Below, piece by piece: positions 30,373 through 36,095 of a DNA stretch of 64,000 nt. The number at the start of each line of letters is the position of its first letter. Within the stretch, counting starts at the first letter, position 1. Position numbers and translations under genes: made by a program. The notes below the pieces were generated by a model. It was not told where the DNA came from and ran no database searches. It saw only the letters and a program-made list of their open reading frames with translations. The stretch lies in contig NZ_SEWW01000001.1 of the NCBI RefSeq assembly GCF_011090385.1, positions 248,001 through 312,000 of the forward strand. The letters are read 5' to 3'. Source of the stretch: Aquirufa beregesia (GTDB taxonomy: Bacteria; Bacteroidota; Bacteroidia; Cytophagales; Spirosomataceae).

Positions 30373-30398
30373 GTAAACGTTTACGGAAACGTTTACGG
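30373..30398. promoter_or_regulatory. Tandem LacI-type operator (two AAACGTTTACGG units)
   Basis: GTAAACGTTTAC at 30373-30384 is a perfect 12-bp palindrome with the central CG of LacI/GalR operators. AAACGTTTACGG occurs twice back to back (30375-30386 and 30387-30398), so a second AAACGTTT core sits exactly 12 bases on. It lies between the divergent permease and sigma factor genes. No LacI-family gene is in the window. Confidence 0.65.
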
Positions 30399-30520
30399 AA
30401 AAAAATTAAAGATTTTCATTGAATTATTATAATTGGTATATCTATATTGGTTTCACTCGAGGTAAGAAATGGAGTAAAATTTAAAAACTACTTACAAAAG
30501 TCCAATTAATCAGAATACCA

Positions 30521-31090
30521 ATGAAACAAAGCATTAATGAGGTGGAAGTTTGGGACCAATTCAGAAGTGGAAACCATCAAGCCTTTACTTGTCTTTATCA
30601 GCATTTTGTACAGCCTTTATATTCCTATTCGATGGGGGTTACAAGTGATAAGGAATTAATCAAAGATTGTTTACATGATTTATTTGTTGAACTGTGGCGT
30701 AATCATGCTAGCCTTGGGCCAACGACGAGCGTCAAGTTTTACTTGATGGCTTCCATTAAACGAAAATTGGTGCGTCATTTAGATGGTCAATTTAAAAATG
30801 CCCAGCATCATGCTAACTATTATTTGGAGTCTGCTGACCGGGATAATAGCCAAGAATATAGGATGATTCGAATGGAAGATGAATTAGCGACCAATAAACA
30901 ATTGTCTCAGTGTTTATTGAAATTAAGTAAAAGACAAAGAGAGGCCATTTCTTTGAAATTTTATCATAATATGGATACGGACCAAATCAGTCAATCCATG
31001 AAAATCAACCCGCAATCCGTGTATAATTTAATTTTCGGTGCTTTGCGCCAGATGAAAGAGTTAATGGTGTATGAAAATGTAGCTTTTTGA
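30521..31090 (+). CDS. ECF-type RNA polymerase sigma factor
   Basis: 189 residues, sigma-70 regions 2 and 4 only. Region 2 includes AFTCLYQHFVQPLYSYSM and LIKDCLHDLFVELWRN. Region 4 includes LSKRQREAISLKFYHNMDTDQISQSMKINPQSVYNLIFGALRQM. Bacteroidota ECF factors of this type usually pair with a FecR-like anti-sigma factor and a SusC with an N-terminal signalling domain. Here neither is present: a 64-residue basic ORF follows and SusC lacks the signalling domain. It probably controls the SusCD operon behind it, but by an unknown signal. Confidence 0.88.
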   Translation: MKQSINEVEVWDQFRSGNHQAFTCLYQHFVQPLYSYSMGVTSDKELIKDCLHDLFVELWRNHASLGPTTSVKFYLMASIKRKLVRHLDGQFKNAQHHANYYLESADRDNSQEYRMIRMEDELATNKQLSQCLLKLSKRQREAISLKFYHNMDTDQISQSMKINPQSVYNLIFGALRQMKELMVYENVAF

Positions 31091-31154
31091 GGTAAAATGA
31101 GTAAAAAGATTTGTATGATTGCTTTATATAATAATTGTACAAAAAAAACTTTAA

Positions 31155-31349
31155 ATGATTCATATAAATGGAAAGGCACAAAGAAACTTAAAACGATTAA
31201 TGCGTTATCGCATTGGTAAATTTTTAGTAAGATTTTCTAGTAATCCCTGGAACCAGTCTAGAAAAGTTATAAACCCTAAGGTCCAGCTAACTCCTGATGA
31301 GAGCAAGGCATTATGGAGTAGAATACAAAATACTTTGCATTCTTATTAA
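31155..31349 (+). CDS. 64-residue basic protein, possible anti-sigma remnant or mini anti-sigma factor
   Basis: I do not recognise this family with certainty. The first 45 residues are very rich in Lys and Arg, with only two acidic residues in the whole chain. The last 20 (QLTPDESKALWSRIQNTLHSY) resemble the W-x-R-I segment that precedes the membrane helix in FecR-like anti-sigma factors. No membrane helix or periplasmic domain follows. It begins 65 bases after the sigma factor gene and ends 19 bases before susC, exactly where fecR is expected. It may be a decayed gene, a soluble mini anti-sigma factor, or a chance ORF. Confidence 0.45.
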   Translation: MIHINGKAQRNLKRLMRYRIGKFLVRFSSNPWNQSRKVINPKVQLTPDESKALWSRIQNTLHSY

Positions 31350-31367
31350 CATAATATTTTAGAACAA

Positions 31368-34300
31368 ATGAGAAAAAAATTACTTTCAAAGTTCCTATTA
31401 AGCATGATATTTGTTTTTTTAGGGATTCAGTTGTTTGCTCAGGAACGTTCCATCAGTGGAAAGATTCTTTCAGCCGATGACGGTTCAGGCATACCTGGGG
31501 TTTCTGTTTTAATTAAAGGTACTAAATTAGGTACATCCTCTGATGCCAATGGAAATTTTAAAATTTCTGCATCAAATTCATCCATCTTATTGATTTCTTC
31601 AGTAGGATATTTACCTCAGGAAATTACGGTAGGATCCAAAAGTCAAATTGATGTTAAGCTTTTAGCAGATAATACCAATTTAAGCGAAGTTATTGTTGTA
31701 GGTTATGGTACTCAGAAAAAGAGTCAAATGACTGGGGCTATATCTTCCGTTGGGGCTAAAGAAATTTCAGAATTACCCGTTACAAATGCTAGACAAGCCT
31801 TACAAGGTAGAGCTGCGGGAGTTGACGTAGTACAACCTGGTTCAAAACCTGGGGCTGGGCCACAAATTCGTATTCGTGGAAGAAGGTCGTTCAATGCTTC
31901 CAATGATCCATTATATGTAGTAGATGGAATTCCATTATCTGGTGGTATTGATGATATTAATCCATCTGATATTACTTCTATGGAGGTATTAAAAGATGCT
32001 TCTGCTACTGCTATTTATGGTTCTAGGGGAGCGAATGGTGTTGTTATCATTAGTACAAAACGCGGTAAAGTTGGTAAAACAATAGTTTCGGTGGATTCAT
32101 ATTATGGTGTTAATCAACAATTAGGAACAATTCAGGTAATGAATGGTTCTGAGTTTGCTGAATATAAACGTGAATCTCGTCGTGCCGTAGGACAGTATCC
32201 ACTTGGTGCTGGAACTGCTGCTGACGATGCTAAAATATTTGAGCCTCGAGAATTAACTAGTATTGCTACTGGTAGAAGTACGGATTATGTAGGAGGGATG
32301 TTGCGCGCTGGTGCTATTCAAAGCCATCAAGTTTCAGTTTCTGGAGGATCTGATAAAACTACTTTCAATATTTCTGCTAATTACTTTAATGACATTGGTG
32401 TCGTGAAAATGCAGGATTTTACACGTTATACATTTCGTGTAAACTTAGATCATCAAATCAATAGTAAGATCAAAATTGGTTTATCTACCTTGGTTGTAAA
32501 CAGCTTGCGTAATGGTGAAAACTTAAATACTTTAGGTGGAGCCATGCAGGAGAATCCACTGGGAGAGCCATATGATGCCAATGGGAATTTAGTATTTCTA
32601 CCAACCAATGATGGCTTAAGAACTAACCCTTTTGCTGAAATTGTTCCAGGTGCTAATATTGATGAGAATAAGCGTTTTAGGACATTTAATAGTCTTTATG
32701 GCGAGTGGAATATTGCTAAAGGTTTAAAGTATCGTGTGAATTTTGGACCAGATTTAACCATTGGACGCGCGGGTAGATTTATAGGTGCTTTTACAAATAA
32801 TAACCGTGGTGGAAATGCTAATGGAAGTATTAGTGAACAATTTTTGTTCAATTGGACTTTAGAAAATGTCATTACTTACAACCGCAAATTTAAAGATGTT
32901 CATAATATCAATTTTACTGGATTACAATCTATTCAGCGTGATCGTGATGAAAGAACTTCTATTTCTGTTAACGGTATTCCTGCAGAATCAGAATCATATC
33001 ATCGATTAGGTGATGCAAGCCAGATTACAGGAGCTAATACAGATTTAATTGAATGGACTTTACTTTCTTATATGGGTCGTTTGAATTATGACTATAAAGA
33101 AAAGTATTTAATAACCGCTACTTTGAGAGCAGATGGGTCTTCCCGATTCGGGGCAAACACCAAATTTGGATTATTTCCTTCTGTGGCTGTTGGTTGGAAT
33201 ATGTCTGAGGAACCTTTTATTAAGGATATTACGGCCATTGATCAATTAAAATTACGTGCTAGCTGGGGAGCCATTGGTAATCAAGCAATAAATCCTTATC
33301 AAACACAAGCTTTGTTAGGTAGAACGGCTTATGCATGGGATAACGCTGCCGCTTATGGATATCGTCCTAATACGATTGGTAACCCAGACTTACGTTGGGA
33401 AACTTCCACTACCAAAAACATAGGTTTAGATTTTAGTTTCCTTCGTGGTAGAATTTCCGGTACAGCTGAATATTATGTTACCAATACGACGAATTTATTA
33501 GCACCTCAACCTTTACCAACTTCTATTGGTTTTGGAGGTTTTACAACCAACGTAGGAGAGACTCAAAACTCAGGTCTTGAATTGACTTTGTCATCTGTCA
33601 ATGTCGATAAAGGTGGATTTAATTGGACAACTGATTTGATTTTCAACCGAAATAGAGAGTCTATCGTGGAATTAGCCAATGGAAAAGTCGATGACATTGG
33701 TGCAGGAAGATTTATAGGTCAACCATTAAGTGTATTTTTTGATTATAAGAAAATAGGCATTTGGCAAACTTCAGAAAAAGATGAAGCTGCTAAATATGGT
33801 GACAAAGTGGGTCAAATTAAAGTTCAGGACTTTAATAATGATGGTAAAATTAATGCCGATGATCGTCAAATTTTAGGTTCGGCAGTTCCTTCTTTTACCG
33901 CTGGTTTAACAAATAGATTTTCTTACAAAGGTTTTGATTTATCATTCTTTGTATTTGCCCGGGTAGGTCAAATGATACGTAGCCGTTTTCATGATAACGT
34001 GAATCAATTAGCCGGTCGTTATAATAACTTATCGTTGAATTTTTGGACTCCTAATAATCCAACCAATGAGTTTCCTCAGCCTGTTGTAACTCAAGAATTT
34101 CCTAAATATGGTAGTTCATTAACCTATTTTGAAGGATCATTCTTTAAAATTAGAAATATCAATATAGGTTACAATATTCCCGACGCAGTAGCTAAAAAGT
34201 GGAAGATGGAAAGTATTCGTGTGTATGCAAGTATTCAACAACCACTGATTTTGGCAGAGTACCGTCAAAAATACAAAGGTATAGATCCAGAAACCTATGT

Positions 34301-34394
34301 GGATGGTGAGCAAGGTGTTGGAGGGGGTGAGGTAAACACCAGCGTATCTCCAGCGACAAGTGTACTTACTTTTGGTGTAAATCTTAAATTTTAA
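31368..34394 (+). CDS. SusC/RagA-family TonB-linked outer membrane protein
   Basis: 1008 residues. A signal peptide ends at FAQ near residue 25. A carboxypeptidase-regulatory-like domain follows (SISGKILSADDGSGIPGVSVLIKGTKLGTSSDANGNF), then a TonB-box region (LSEVIVVGYGTQKKSQMTGAISSV), a plug domain with YVVDGIPLSGG and VLKDASATAIYGSRGANGVVIISTKRG, and a 22-strand barrel ending in the C-terminal GVNLKF. There is no STN domain, so it should not signal to an anti-sigma factor. It imports an oligosaccharide or similar ligand captured by the SusD partner encoded next. Confidence 0.95.
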   Translation: MRKKLLSKFLLSMIFVFLGIQLFAQERSISGKILSADDGSGIPGVSVLIKGTKLGTSSDANGNFKISASNSSILLISSVGYLPQEITVGSKSQIDVKLLADNTNLSEVIVVGYGTQKKSQMTGAISSVGAKEISELPVTNARQALQGRAAGVDVVQPGSKPGAGPQIRIRGRRSFNASNDPLYVVDGIPLSGGIDDINPSDITSMEVLKDASATAIYGSRGANGVVIISTKRGKVGKTIVSVDSYYGVNQQLGTIQVMNGSEFAEYKRESRRAVGQYPLGAGTAADDAKIFEPRELTSIATGRSTDYVGGMLRAGAIQSHQVSVSGGSDKTTFNISANYFNDIGVVKMQDFTRYTFRVNLDHQINSKIKIGLSTLVVNSLRNGENLNTLGGAMQENPLGEPYDANGNLVFLPTNDGLRTNPFAEIVPGANIDENKRFRTFNSLYGEWNIAKGLKYRVNFGPDLTIGRAGRFIGAFTNNNRGGNANGSISEQFLFNWTLENVITYNRKFKDVHNINFTGLQSIQRDRDERTSISVNGIPAESESYHRLGDASQITGANTDLIEWTLLSYMGRLNYDYKEKYLITATLRADGSSRFGANTKFGLFPSVAVGWNMSEEPFIKDITAIDQLKLRASWGAIGNQAINPYQTQALLGRTAYAWDNAAAYGYRPNTIGNPDLRWETSTTKNIGLDFSFLRGRISGTAEYYVTNTTNLLAPQPLPTSIGFGGFTTNVGETQNSGLELTLSSVNVDKGGFNWTTDLIFNRNRESIVELANGKVDDIGAGRFIGQPLSVFFDYKKIGIWQTSEKDEAAKYGDKVGQIKVQDFNNDGKINADDRQILGSAVPSFTAGLTNRFSYKGFDLSFFVFARVGQMIRSRFHDNVNQLAGRYNNLSLNFWTPNNPTNEFPQPVVTQEFPKYGSSLTYFEGSFFKIRNINIGYNIPDAVAKKWKMESIRVYASIQQPLILAEYRQKYKGIDPETYVDGEQGVGGGEVNTSVSPATSVLTFGVNLKF

Positions 34395-34418
34395 CTATTA
34401 TTTCAAATATTGATAGAT

Positions 34419-36095
34419 ATGAAAAGCTTTAAATTATTTAAAAAAATAAGTTTTTTAGCAAATTTAGGATTGATTGGAACTTTAGGTTTAGGTTTACAAT
34501 CCTGTAATGATTTGCTAACAGAGAATGTCGTTTCTCGTATTGGGAATGACTACATTAATACTGCTAAAGGATTGAATGACGCAACAAGTGCTGCTTATTC
34601 AACGATGCGTTCTTGGTATGGTACTGAGCGTGGAATGAATTTGACTATTTTTGGTACAGATTCTTACACCAATGGTGCTGATGGCAGCTGGAAATTTATG
34701 AATACCTATACTACTGATTTCGATACACGAAACGGTTTATTGGCAGAAATTTGGAATGATTTTTACCAAGGTATTAATACATGTAATGCAATTATTGGGC
34801 GTGCGCCTTCTGTAACAGGTTTAACTGAGTCAATTAAAAAACAGCGCGTTGCGGAAGCTAAGTTTATTCGTGCTCATCATTATTTTATTTTTACTCAATT
34901 ATTTGGTGGGGTAGATTTGCGTTTAACAGAAACATTAGCACCTACTAAAGTTGTAAAACGTAGTACCGTAGCTGAGCAATATGCTCAAATCATTAAAGAT
35001 TTGAATGAAGCAATTCCAGATTTAGAAAATAAATCTAGATCTGCTGAATATGGTCGTGCTACACGTGCTGCTGCTGAACATTTATTAGGAAGAGTGTATT
35101 TGACAAAAGCGACTTCATCAGCCAAAGCTGGAGATGATTATGCTAAAGCCATTGTTAATTTAAAAAATGTTATAGCTAATTATGGCCTAATTTTATTACC
35201 CAATTTCGCTGACGTGCATAAGCAAGGAAATGAAATGAATAATGAGGTTATTTGGTCAATTCAGTATACTCGTGATCCATTAACGAATGCAGGAGGTAAT
35301 AATGCTCACGTATTTTTTGGTATGGAGTATGATGTATTACCGGGTATGCAACGTGATACGGAAAATGGTCGTCCATTTAAGCGATACAAGCCTACCAATT
35401 ATACCTTGGATGTAGTTTTTAACAATCGCGAAAATGATAGTCGCTATAAGAAAACTTTTAAAGATACCTACCTTTCTAATAAACCAGGGACTTACAATAC
35501 AAGTTTTGACCTAACGAAGAAAACAGTCACATTTGCTTTAGGCGATACGGCTATTTTCTTACCAGGTTATGAAATGTCGGAAGCTGAAAGAGCTAAAAAG
35601 AAATATCAAGTGTTGGTTCCGTCTCGATATGACGAGCGTATTTTCCCAGCTATTAACAAGCATTTTGATGGTGGTCGTGTAGACCGTACTCAATTTGAGG
35701 GAGGACGTGATTTTATTGCTTTCAGGTTGGCTGATACGTATTTGATGTTAGCAGAAGCTCAATATTTCTCTGGACTTAAGTCAGATGCTGCGACAAATTA
35801 CAATTTGATACGTCGTCGTGCAGCTTGGTCAGGAAAAGAAGCAGAAATGATGGTTAAAGCAGAGGATTTAACGCTTGATTTTGTTATGGATGAACGTGAA
35901 CGTGAATTAATTGGTGAACAATCTCGCTGGTTAGATTTAGCTCGTTGGGGTAATTTGATTGAACGTGTGAAAAAATATAATCCGCAAGCAGCTTCATTTA
36001 TTAAAGCTCATCACGTTTTAAGACCTATTCCTCAATTGCAAATTGATAGAGCAGAAGGTACTTCTACAGGTTTTCCTCAAAATTCAGGCTATTAA
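34419..36095 (+). CDS. SusD/RagB-family nutrient-binding outer membrane lipoprotein
   Basis: 558 residues from the ATG at 34419 (a TTG nine bases upstream is less likely). The lipoprotein signal ends at LGLQSC with the lipid-bearing Cys at 29. The helical TPR-like SusD body is recognisable from AKFIRAHHYFIFTQLFGGVDL, then AEQYAQIIKDLNEAIPDL, and DERERELIGEQSRWLDLARWGNL near the C-terminus. SusD forms the lid over SusC and binds the substrate. The genes are 24 bases apart and form one unit. The ligand cannot be read from the sequence. Confidence 0.94.
   Translation: MKSFKLFKKISFLANLGLIGTLGLGLQSCNDLLTENVVSRIGNDYINTAKGLNDATSAAYSTMRSWYGTERGMNLTIFGTDSYTNGADGSWKFMNTYTTDFDTRNGLLAEIWNDFYQGINTCNAIIGRAPSVTGLTESIKKQRVAEAKFIRAHHYFIFTQLFGGVDLRLTETLAPTKVVKRSTVAEQYAQIIKDLNEAIPDLENKSRSAEYGRATRAAAEHLLGRVYLTKATSSAKAGDDYAKAIVNLKNVIANYGLILLPNFADVHKQGNEMNNEVIWSIQYTRDPLTNAGGNNAHVFFGMEYDVLPGMQRDTENGRPFKRYKPTNYTLDVVFNNRENDSRYKKTFKDTYLSNKPGTYNTSFDLTKKTVTFALGDTAIFLPGYEMSEAERAKKKYQVLVPSRYDERIFPAINKHFDGGRVDRTQFEGGRDFIAFRLADTYLMLAEAQYFSGLKSDAATNYNLIRRRAAWSGKEAEMMVKAEDLTLDFVMDERERELIGEQSRWLDLARWGNLIERVKKYNPQAASFIKAHHVLRPIPQLQIDRAEGTSTGFPQNSGY

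Follow-up and report, generated by a model that had tools for sequence, protein, structure and literature searches.

The locus described here lies in a 64,000-nucleotide stretch of Aquirufa beregesia DNA (the window, to whose + strand all coordinates of its features refer) and is read, with the weight roughly even for and against, as a rewired FecI-FecR-SusC module in which a LacI-type regulator would act on an ECF sigma gene, the sigma factor on an operon consisting of a small ("mini") gene, susC and susD, and the mini protein as a feedback anti-sigma factor built on the last helix of FecR. It seems that, in a freshwater bacterial group, a membrane-spanning guard of a sigma factor has been cut stepwise to a short soluble protein, and that control of the sigma gene has passed to the site of a sugar-type regulator. 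What is firm is that the mini gene is conserved, that its C-terminal helix is under selection and related to the FecR domain, and that two DNA elements are present with the distribution described below.

The ECF sigma factor (189 aa, 30521..31090) matches Pfam Sigma70_r2 and Sigma70_r4_2 above cut-off and, among the NCBIfam models, is closest to TIGR02985 (FecI-like ECF sigma of Bacteroidota), its score of 84.7 bits being below the curated cut-off of 126.4. The sigma gene has a dN/dS of 0.03 across six clade-A species, and its nearest named relative among the matches listed is that of Aquirufa aurantiipilula (97% identical). It is followed by a probable sigma-dependent promoter (31099..31125), by the mini ORF (64 aa, ATG start, 31155..31349), which is characterised by conservation, selection and profile matches to the FecR helix, by the gene of a SusC-type TonB-dependent receptor (1008 aa, 31368..34394; Pfam and NCBIfam) and by that of a SusD-type lipoprotein (561 aa, 34410..36095; Pfam SusD_RagB and SusD-like_3). 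The mini gene adjoins both the ECF sigma gene and the TonB-dependent receptor gene, and the layout of sigma gene, 64-residue ORF and susC given in a first-pass annotation of this DNA holds in its coordinates, as does the statement that SusC lacks an STN domain, Pfam finding none in the window SusC, nor in the three sister-genus SusC proteins tested (L062, L068 and L071). Beyond that annotation, the present analysis adds a tandem operator (30373-30397) and a conserved element resembling a promoter (31099-31125).

The 64-residue ORF is confirmed as a genuine gene, conserved and under selection. A sigma search of 39 genomes yielded 22 same-genus orthologues (62-100% identity, own genome included), and 24 loci were oriented, from which L022 (cut off by the contig end), L023 (from another family, its sigma gene being followed by an ordinary FecR) and L024 (a weak paralogue) were set aside, leaving 21 same-genus loci with sequence reaching susC. 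The first-pass annotation had proposed looking for the ORF beside ECF sigma genes of related genomes, with its absence from close relatives counting against it; a small ORF of 44-65 aa (counted from the first Met in the open frame) occupies this slot in all 21 loci, its stop codon lying 11-21 nt upstream of the susC ATG in each, and it is kept wherever susC is kept. Nine columns are invariant in the 21 mini proteins (the start Met, L45, E49, A52, L53, W54, I57, T60 and L61), and the conserved end reads LxxxExxALWxxIxxTL. The dN/dS ratio, which the same annotation had suggested determining, is 0.03 for the C-terminal part (44-63) versus 0.50 for the front part in six close clade-A species, the genus-wide value for the 17 C-part codons being 0.23 (21 sequences) and not 0.03. 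Within these 17 codons the third position is variable in 13, the first in 9 and the second in 5, while in six clade-A sequences each of the two alternative frames of the small-ORF stretch is interrupted by 3 to 10 stops. Synonymous changes are fewer in the C-part than in the sigma gene (pS of 0.25 versus 0.69), and ACTTTG, representing the Thr60-Leu61 codons, is invariant in 21/21 loci though both codons have synonyms; some constraint may therefore act on DNA or RNA.

The window protein is very basic (K+R 13, D+E 2) and lacks a membrane helix (its best mean hydropathy over 19 residues is -0.26, and none of the 21 proteins exceeds 1.09), in agreement with the earlier description. The front part is basic in 26 of 27 mini proteins (net charge of +5 to +13), being neutral in Sandaracinomonas L059, and is poorly alignable between subclades; an amphipathic front helix acting as a membrane-surface anchor was not supported, the hydrophobic moment being above that of shuffles (fraction <0.05) in only one of the 27. 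Pfam gave nothing significant for the 64 aa protein (best E 0.09), with no match to FecR (PF04773), and its structure model is of low confidence (pLDDT 69). When 390 genomes of the order, only seven of them belonging to the genus, were searched with the small protein, it was found in nine, these being the seven genus genomes, G213 from another genus of the family (the same protein as that of L059), and a single 408-aa frame, the match to which (E 0.004) was taken as chance.

When named genomes, some of them shared with the 39 above, were scanned using the sigma alignment, 155 relatives emerged, of which 80 were kept and 60 were read in their downstream region. The mini ORF is present in 10 of the 11 Aquirufa and Sandaracinomonas loci read, the exception (L067) being without susCD too. 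The same slot holds an intact ORF of 87-90 aa in 11 of 13 loci from Arcicella, Flectobacillus, Pseudarcicella and four differently labelled loci that group with them, this ORF being frameshifted in L070 and missing, as is susC, from L064. Another 36 loci, from Fibrella, Dyadobacter, Runella and others, have the sigma gene alone, the next long ORF not being SusC in 35 of them and L082 breaking off; by eye, 26 of the 36 (L075-L110, the orphan-sigma loci) have a next long ORF whose start resembles LAERLRPRTLDDYIGQ, presumably RarA. In a quick sigma tree, which contains several long branches, the mini clade including Sandaracinomonas (support 83) lies beside the soluble-domain clade (94), with the orphan sigma factors outside. 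A release of the sigma-4 face in the mini clade was rejected, given that per-domain sigma conservation shows no difference that stands out.

Judged from profile comparisons, the 87-90 aa Arcicella-type protein is the entire FecR cytosolic domain and stops short of the membrane helix. Its profile matches the L023 FecR, which Pfam recognises as such and which had been reached by way of its sigma gene, with E 5e-21, and frames in 70 of 241 genomes of the order, most of the listed ones being 330-400 aa long; against 24 FecR-type proteins, 23 of which had been gathered with that same profile, the match has a probability of 99.6 (E 6e-25), covers residues 7-89 and stops before their hydrophobic stretch. 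The Arcicella-type proteins have a dN/dS of 0.09-0.21 (three comparisons, 7 of 11 proteins), and AlphaFold (pLDDT 83.7) predicts helices at 14-28, 33-45 and 47-61, a linker, and then a helix at 72-88. Among solved structures, no relative of this domain was found, the best sequence match being a choline kinase (E 0.028), and there was no fold match.

By comparison with this domain, the window protein appears to correspond only to its last helix. A profile of the 21 mini proteins matches the 11 Arcicella-type proteins over the last 24 columns (probability 94, E 1e-7), and a last-helix profile derived from the latter selects the mini frame among 126 six-frame translations in 15 of the 21 loci (E 1e-8 to 0.03). 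The last cytosolic FecR helix, with its conserved Leu-Trp, is therefore present in the mini protein by profile, being weak or unseen in six of the 21 (L016 to L021: E 0.14 to 1.5 in L016, L018, L020 and L021; L017 and L019 absent from the matches listed); against the 24 FecR-type proteins the 21 mini proteins reach a probability of only 61 (E 8e-5). The three-helix bundle gave no significant match in any frame of the 21 sigma-susC gaps (bundle profile, best E 0.66), and a bundle remnant hidden in another frame of the gap was rejected. The resemblance of the ORF end to the segment preceding the FecR membrane helix, which the first-pass annotation had remarked upon, is thereby borne out at the level of the last cytosolic helix. 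Since a soluble, whole FecR cytosolic domain occupies the same slot in sister genera, it is very likely that the mini ORF is derived from an anti-sigma domain. An intact fecR in this place, of which the ORF would be the remnant, occurs in none of the close relatives examined; in the own genome two ordinary FecR matches lie away from the locus, and 20 of 38 genus genomes have any FecR match.

In class I anti-sigma domains, sigma-4 is contacted by helix 1 and sigma-2 by helix 4, which covers the clamp-binding face (PMC7406223). The Arcicella type resembles those of the RseA, ChrR and RskA type in its predicted three-helix bundle, linker and fourth helix, and the conserved Trp in the last helix is a further likeness, whereas the window protein keeps the last helix alone. 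CnrY is a very short, membrane-anchored anti-sigma module without a bundle; it shares shortness and the missing bundle with the window protein, which unlike CnrY is soluble. The isolated N-terminal domain of Leptospira LIC12756, a construct of 73 aa, is reported to act as an anti-sigma factor and to stabilise its sigma factor in assays (PMC13118517), the short form being a laboratory truncation there and a natural protein without a bundle here. The open-access literature searched, with subscription papers and preprints outside its scope, yielded no description of a naturally truncated soluble FecR or of this locus.

Of 40 loci with a mini or soluble-domain ORF, 33 carry the promoter-like element GAGTA-N18-CTTT (in the window, -35 at 31099-31103 and -10 at 31122-31125) in the gap that separates this ORF from the sigma gene, the count being 26 of 28 with a mini ORF and 7 of 12 with a soluble domain; a few of the 40, such as L002 and L031, are near-duplicates. 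Among other spacings from 10 to 26, one locus each was found at 11, 13 and 19 and none elsewhere, and single-base shuffles gave GAGTA...CTTT in a mean of 0.03 and a maximum of 2 of 40 loci. By eye, six of the seven loci without the exact motif carry close variants (AAGTA, N19 or CTTG), L070 being outside this reading. The fuller form TGAGTA-N17-GCTTTA occurs once in the own genome, at this locus (control 0). In the window the -10 box ends 29 nt upstream of the mini ATG, and in the matching mini loci GAGTA is located 49-56 nt upstream. The element is presumably read by the locus's own sigma factor, and, given this apparent sigma-dependent promoter upstream of it, the mini gene would come first on a transcript presumed to depend on sigma. 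In E. coli, fecR is placed with fecI, ahead of the fecA promoter; the mini gene differs in being behind the presumed sigma promoter.

A relaxed form of the promoter was found in 6 of 15 loci of other genera, lying before a gene for the FecR domain plus a membrane helix that precedes SusC in L150, L155, L161 and L166, and in L151, where a gene of this type is followed by a further sigma-FecR pair; the sixth match, in L158, may be chance. The motif is absent from the other nine of the 15 loci tested, including L162 and L164 with a full FecR and three f12 loci. A wider regulon was rejected, since the pattern TGAGTAnAA-N12-16-CTTTT gave 26 matches in nine genomes of two related genera versus 31 for the reversed control, and hence no enrichment. 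Four of these 26 loose-pattern matches are located just upstream of genes with a FecR cytosolic domain.

The second DNA element, a tandem LacI/CcpA-like operator (30373..30397), consists of two palindromes, GTAAACGTTTACG (30373-30385) and GGAAACGTTTACG (30385-30397), with AACGTT cores 12 bp apart. It is present upstream of the sigma gene in 43/43 loci of the Aquirufa, Sandaracinomonas, Arcicella, Flectobacillus and Pseudarcicella group (with AATCGTT in three of the 43) and in 0/33 orphan-sigma loci, and at most 1 of the 43 had it in 1000 single-base shuffles. The operator consensus of LacI, GalR and CcpA is a palindrome with a central AAACGTTT, and this centre is found here, replaced by AATCGTTT in 3/43 loci. 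In the own genome the double site is unique; allowing up to three mismatches gives three matches, two of which are this site on both strands (control 7), and for single operators there is no enrichment (6 matches versus 12 in the control).

A LacI match is present in 35 of 38 genus genomes, and one orthologue, located near a gene read as gyrA and 77-83% identical to L179 where full length, accounts for 24 of 29 LacI loci from other genus genomes; in the one-contig genome G007, which has the operator, this orthologue is the sole LacI match. The L179-type LacI protein is, by genome content, a candidate regulator of the operator, and the sigma gene is apparently under LacI-type operator control. 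The Bacteroidota housekeeping promoter consensus is of the -33/-7 type, and a putative promoter of this kind, TTGA-N20-TATATTGG, is located at 30419..30450, with TTGA or TTTG followed by TATATT resembling it in most of the 43 sigma upstream regions (by eye, uncounted). As the operators are upstream of the putative -33 box, repression is not the obvious mode of action.

In the circuit proposed here, a LacI-family regulator on the tandem operator would set the sigma level, and sigma would transcribe the mini-susC-susD operon from GAGTA-N18-CTTT. The first gene of this operon would give rise to a soluble mini protein whose C-terminal helix would be the surviving helix 4 of the FecR anti-sigma domain, and which would contact the sigma-2 domain as class I helix 4 does, where the polymerase clamp binds, so that the operon would be kept in check by its own product, a negative feedback independent of any surface signal. 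We infer that LacI binds the operator, that sigma uses the promoter, and that the mini protein both binds and inhibits sigma. Because, according to PMC7406223, FecR-type domains show poor alignment with the other class I groups, the helix 4/sigma-2 contact is likewise one that we infer. Beside the conservation, selection and profile results and the recurrent LacI orthologue, the circuit is supported by L067 (5001-6062), a genus member with its sigma factor on a long branch, which keeps the sigma gene and the tandem operator, has lost susCD and the mini ORF, shows no GAGTA motif by eye, and has DUF6807 directly after the sigma gene, and by the relaxed promoter before the domain-plus-helix genes of L150, L155, L161 and L166, whose stretches revealed no sigma of this kind on that strand. 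Counting against the circuit are the lost bundle, the genus-wide C-part dN/dS, the weaker last-helix matches, the low-confidence mini model, the position of the operators and their lack of enrichment as single sites, the unremarkable sigma-4 conservation, the restrained synonymous sites and the loci of other genera without the motif.

Compared with the FecI-FecR-FecA systems of E. coli and Pseudomonas, the locus is alike in having genes for an ECF sigma factor, a FecR-derived protein and a TonB-dependent receptor side by side, with sigma apparently driving the receptor operon; it differs in having no membrane helix, no periplasmic FecR domain and no STN on the receptor, in the position of the FecR-derived gene behind the apparent sigma promoter, and in the LacI-type operator at the sigma gene. 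In E. coli, residues 9-59 of FecR, well before the membrane helix, are the part reported to bind and activate FecI (PMC9249621). With the bundle gone, the helix retained in Aquirufa is not the part shown to work there, and since the part kept is, by position, outside residues 9-59, a last-helix feedback inhibitor is favoured, its chances being about even. Tentatively, and with the balance somewhat against it, FecR may have lost its periplasmic part, then its membrane helix and then its bundle, the last helix being left as a stand-alone sigma-2 inhibitor within an intracellular relay from LacI to sigma to operon that took the place of a surface-signalled switch. The first-pass annotation had considered a cytosolic mini anti-sigma factor, for which a FecR-domain origin is very likely and solubility and conservation are supported, and whose shortened form may still bind sigma, and a sigma factor freed from control, which applies to surface signalling and not to control as such, the gene being apparently under a LacI-type operator.

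Several readings compete with this feedback circuit. The mini ORF might be a leader that is translated only to pass ribosomes on to susC, its product having no target of its own and its end being conserved by nucleotide constraint close to where susC starts. The short presumed leader between promoter and ORF (29 nt from the -10 box and 49-56 nt from GAGTA to the ATG), the 11-21 nt between the mini stop and the susC ATG in 21/21 loci, the fast-evolving front part, the invariant ACTTTG and the low C-part pS are all consistent with such coupling; yet third codon positions are the most variable ones in the conserved stretch (13 of 17, versus 9 first and 5 second), this stretch aligns with the FecR helix, and sister genera have a complete domain with a dN/dS of 0.09-0.21 (three comparisons, 7 of 11 proteins) in the same slot, which makes translational coupling as the sole role rather unlikely. 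Decay of a leftover fecR on its way to loss, with sigma controlled through LacI only, is very improbable: the FecR-type proteins of related genera, shortened to various lengths, the front part with its dN/dS of 0.50 and poor alignment between subclades, and the loss of the mini ORF in L067 point in that direction, but L067 lost susCD at the same time, and the ORF persists in all 21 loci in which susC is retained, has an invariant core and shows a C-part dN/dS of 0.03 in close species.

A soluble FecR piece could alternatively help its sigma factor, so that the module would be genetically pre-cleaved and on whenever sigma is made. Soluble N-terminal fragments of E. coli FecR activate FecI without a signal, and truncated FecR (59 to 116 residues), FoxR 1-93 and FiuR 1-91 are reported to activate their sigma factors (PMC9249621); the Arcicella-type protein, moreover, ends near the expected start of the FecR membrane helix. 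Against this, the Aquirufa form is without the bundle, the counterpart by position of the activating part, the Leptospira LIC12756 N-terminal domain inhibits as well as stabilises its sigma factor (PMC13118517), an FpvR fragment is reported to inhibit, and the mini gene lies behind an apparent sigma-dependent promoter, so that a pro-sigma cofactor is considered distinctly unlikely.

If the feedback reading is true, the mini protein would represent a new, minimal kind of anti-sigma factor, forms like its intermediates living in extant genera, and its retained helix would be the half complementary to the E. coli fragment that activates FecI. FecR-type regulators inhibit, activate or do both, and which part does what is unsettled; with graded shortened forms beside one sigma family and a readable promoter, the roles of the bundle and the last helix become directly testable. 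The locus also suggests a route by which a nutrient receptor operon may pass out of surface signalling into intracellular, sugar-type control with its sigma factor kept.

Further shortened or unusual FecR forms were observed. The domain-plus-helix proteins of L150, L151, L155, L161 and L166, from two genera of the same family, comprise the FecR cytosolic domain and a membrane helix with no periplasmic part, and are 126-130 aa long (160 aa from the first start in L161); in all but L151 the gene is followed by SusC, and that strand of the stretch shows no related sigma, whereas in L151 another sigma-FecR pair comes next. Proteins of 262-269 aa in L152, L153, L165 and L167 have the domain, a membrane helix and a periplasmic part shorter than that of usual FecR, a SusC-like gene being next in 3 of the 4. 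A parallel, though from few loci, is offered by f12, another family of the order, where in three loci (L154, L156 and L157) a soluble FecR-domain protein of 97-130 aa follows the sigma gene; L156 and L157 have a LacI-type gene (by eye) within about 3 kb, and L156 carries GGAAACGTTTCC about 33 nt upstream of sigma. Finally, L158 (3949-6015 after reverse complement) and L159 encode a protein of 688-692 aa with at least five tandem FecR-type cytosolic domains, which in L158 has no membrane helix in residues 61-189, its gene being located between an ECF sigma gene and a gene with an STN-type TonB receptor-like N-terminus.
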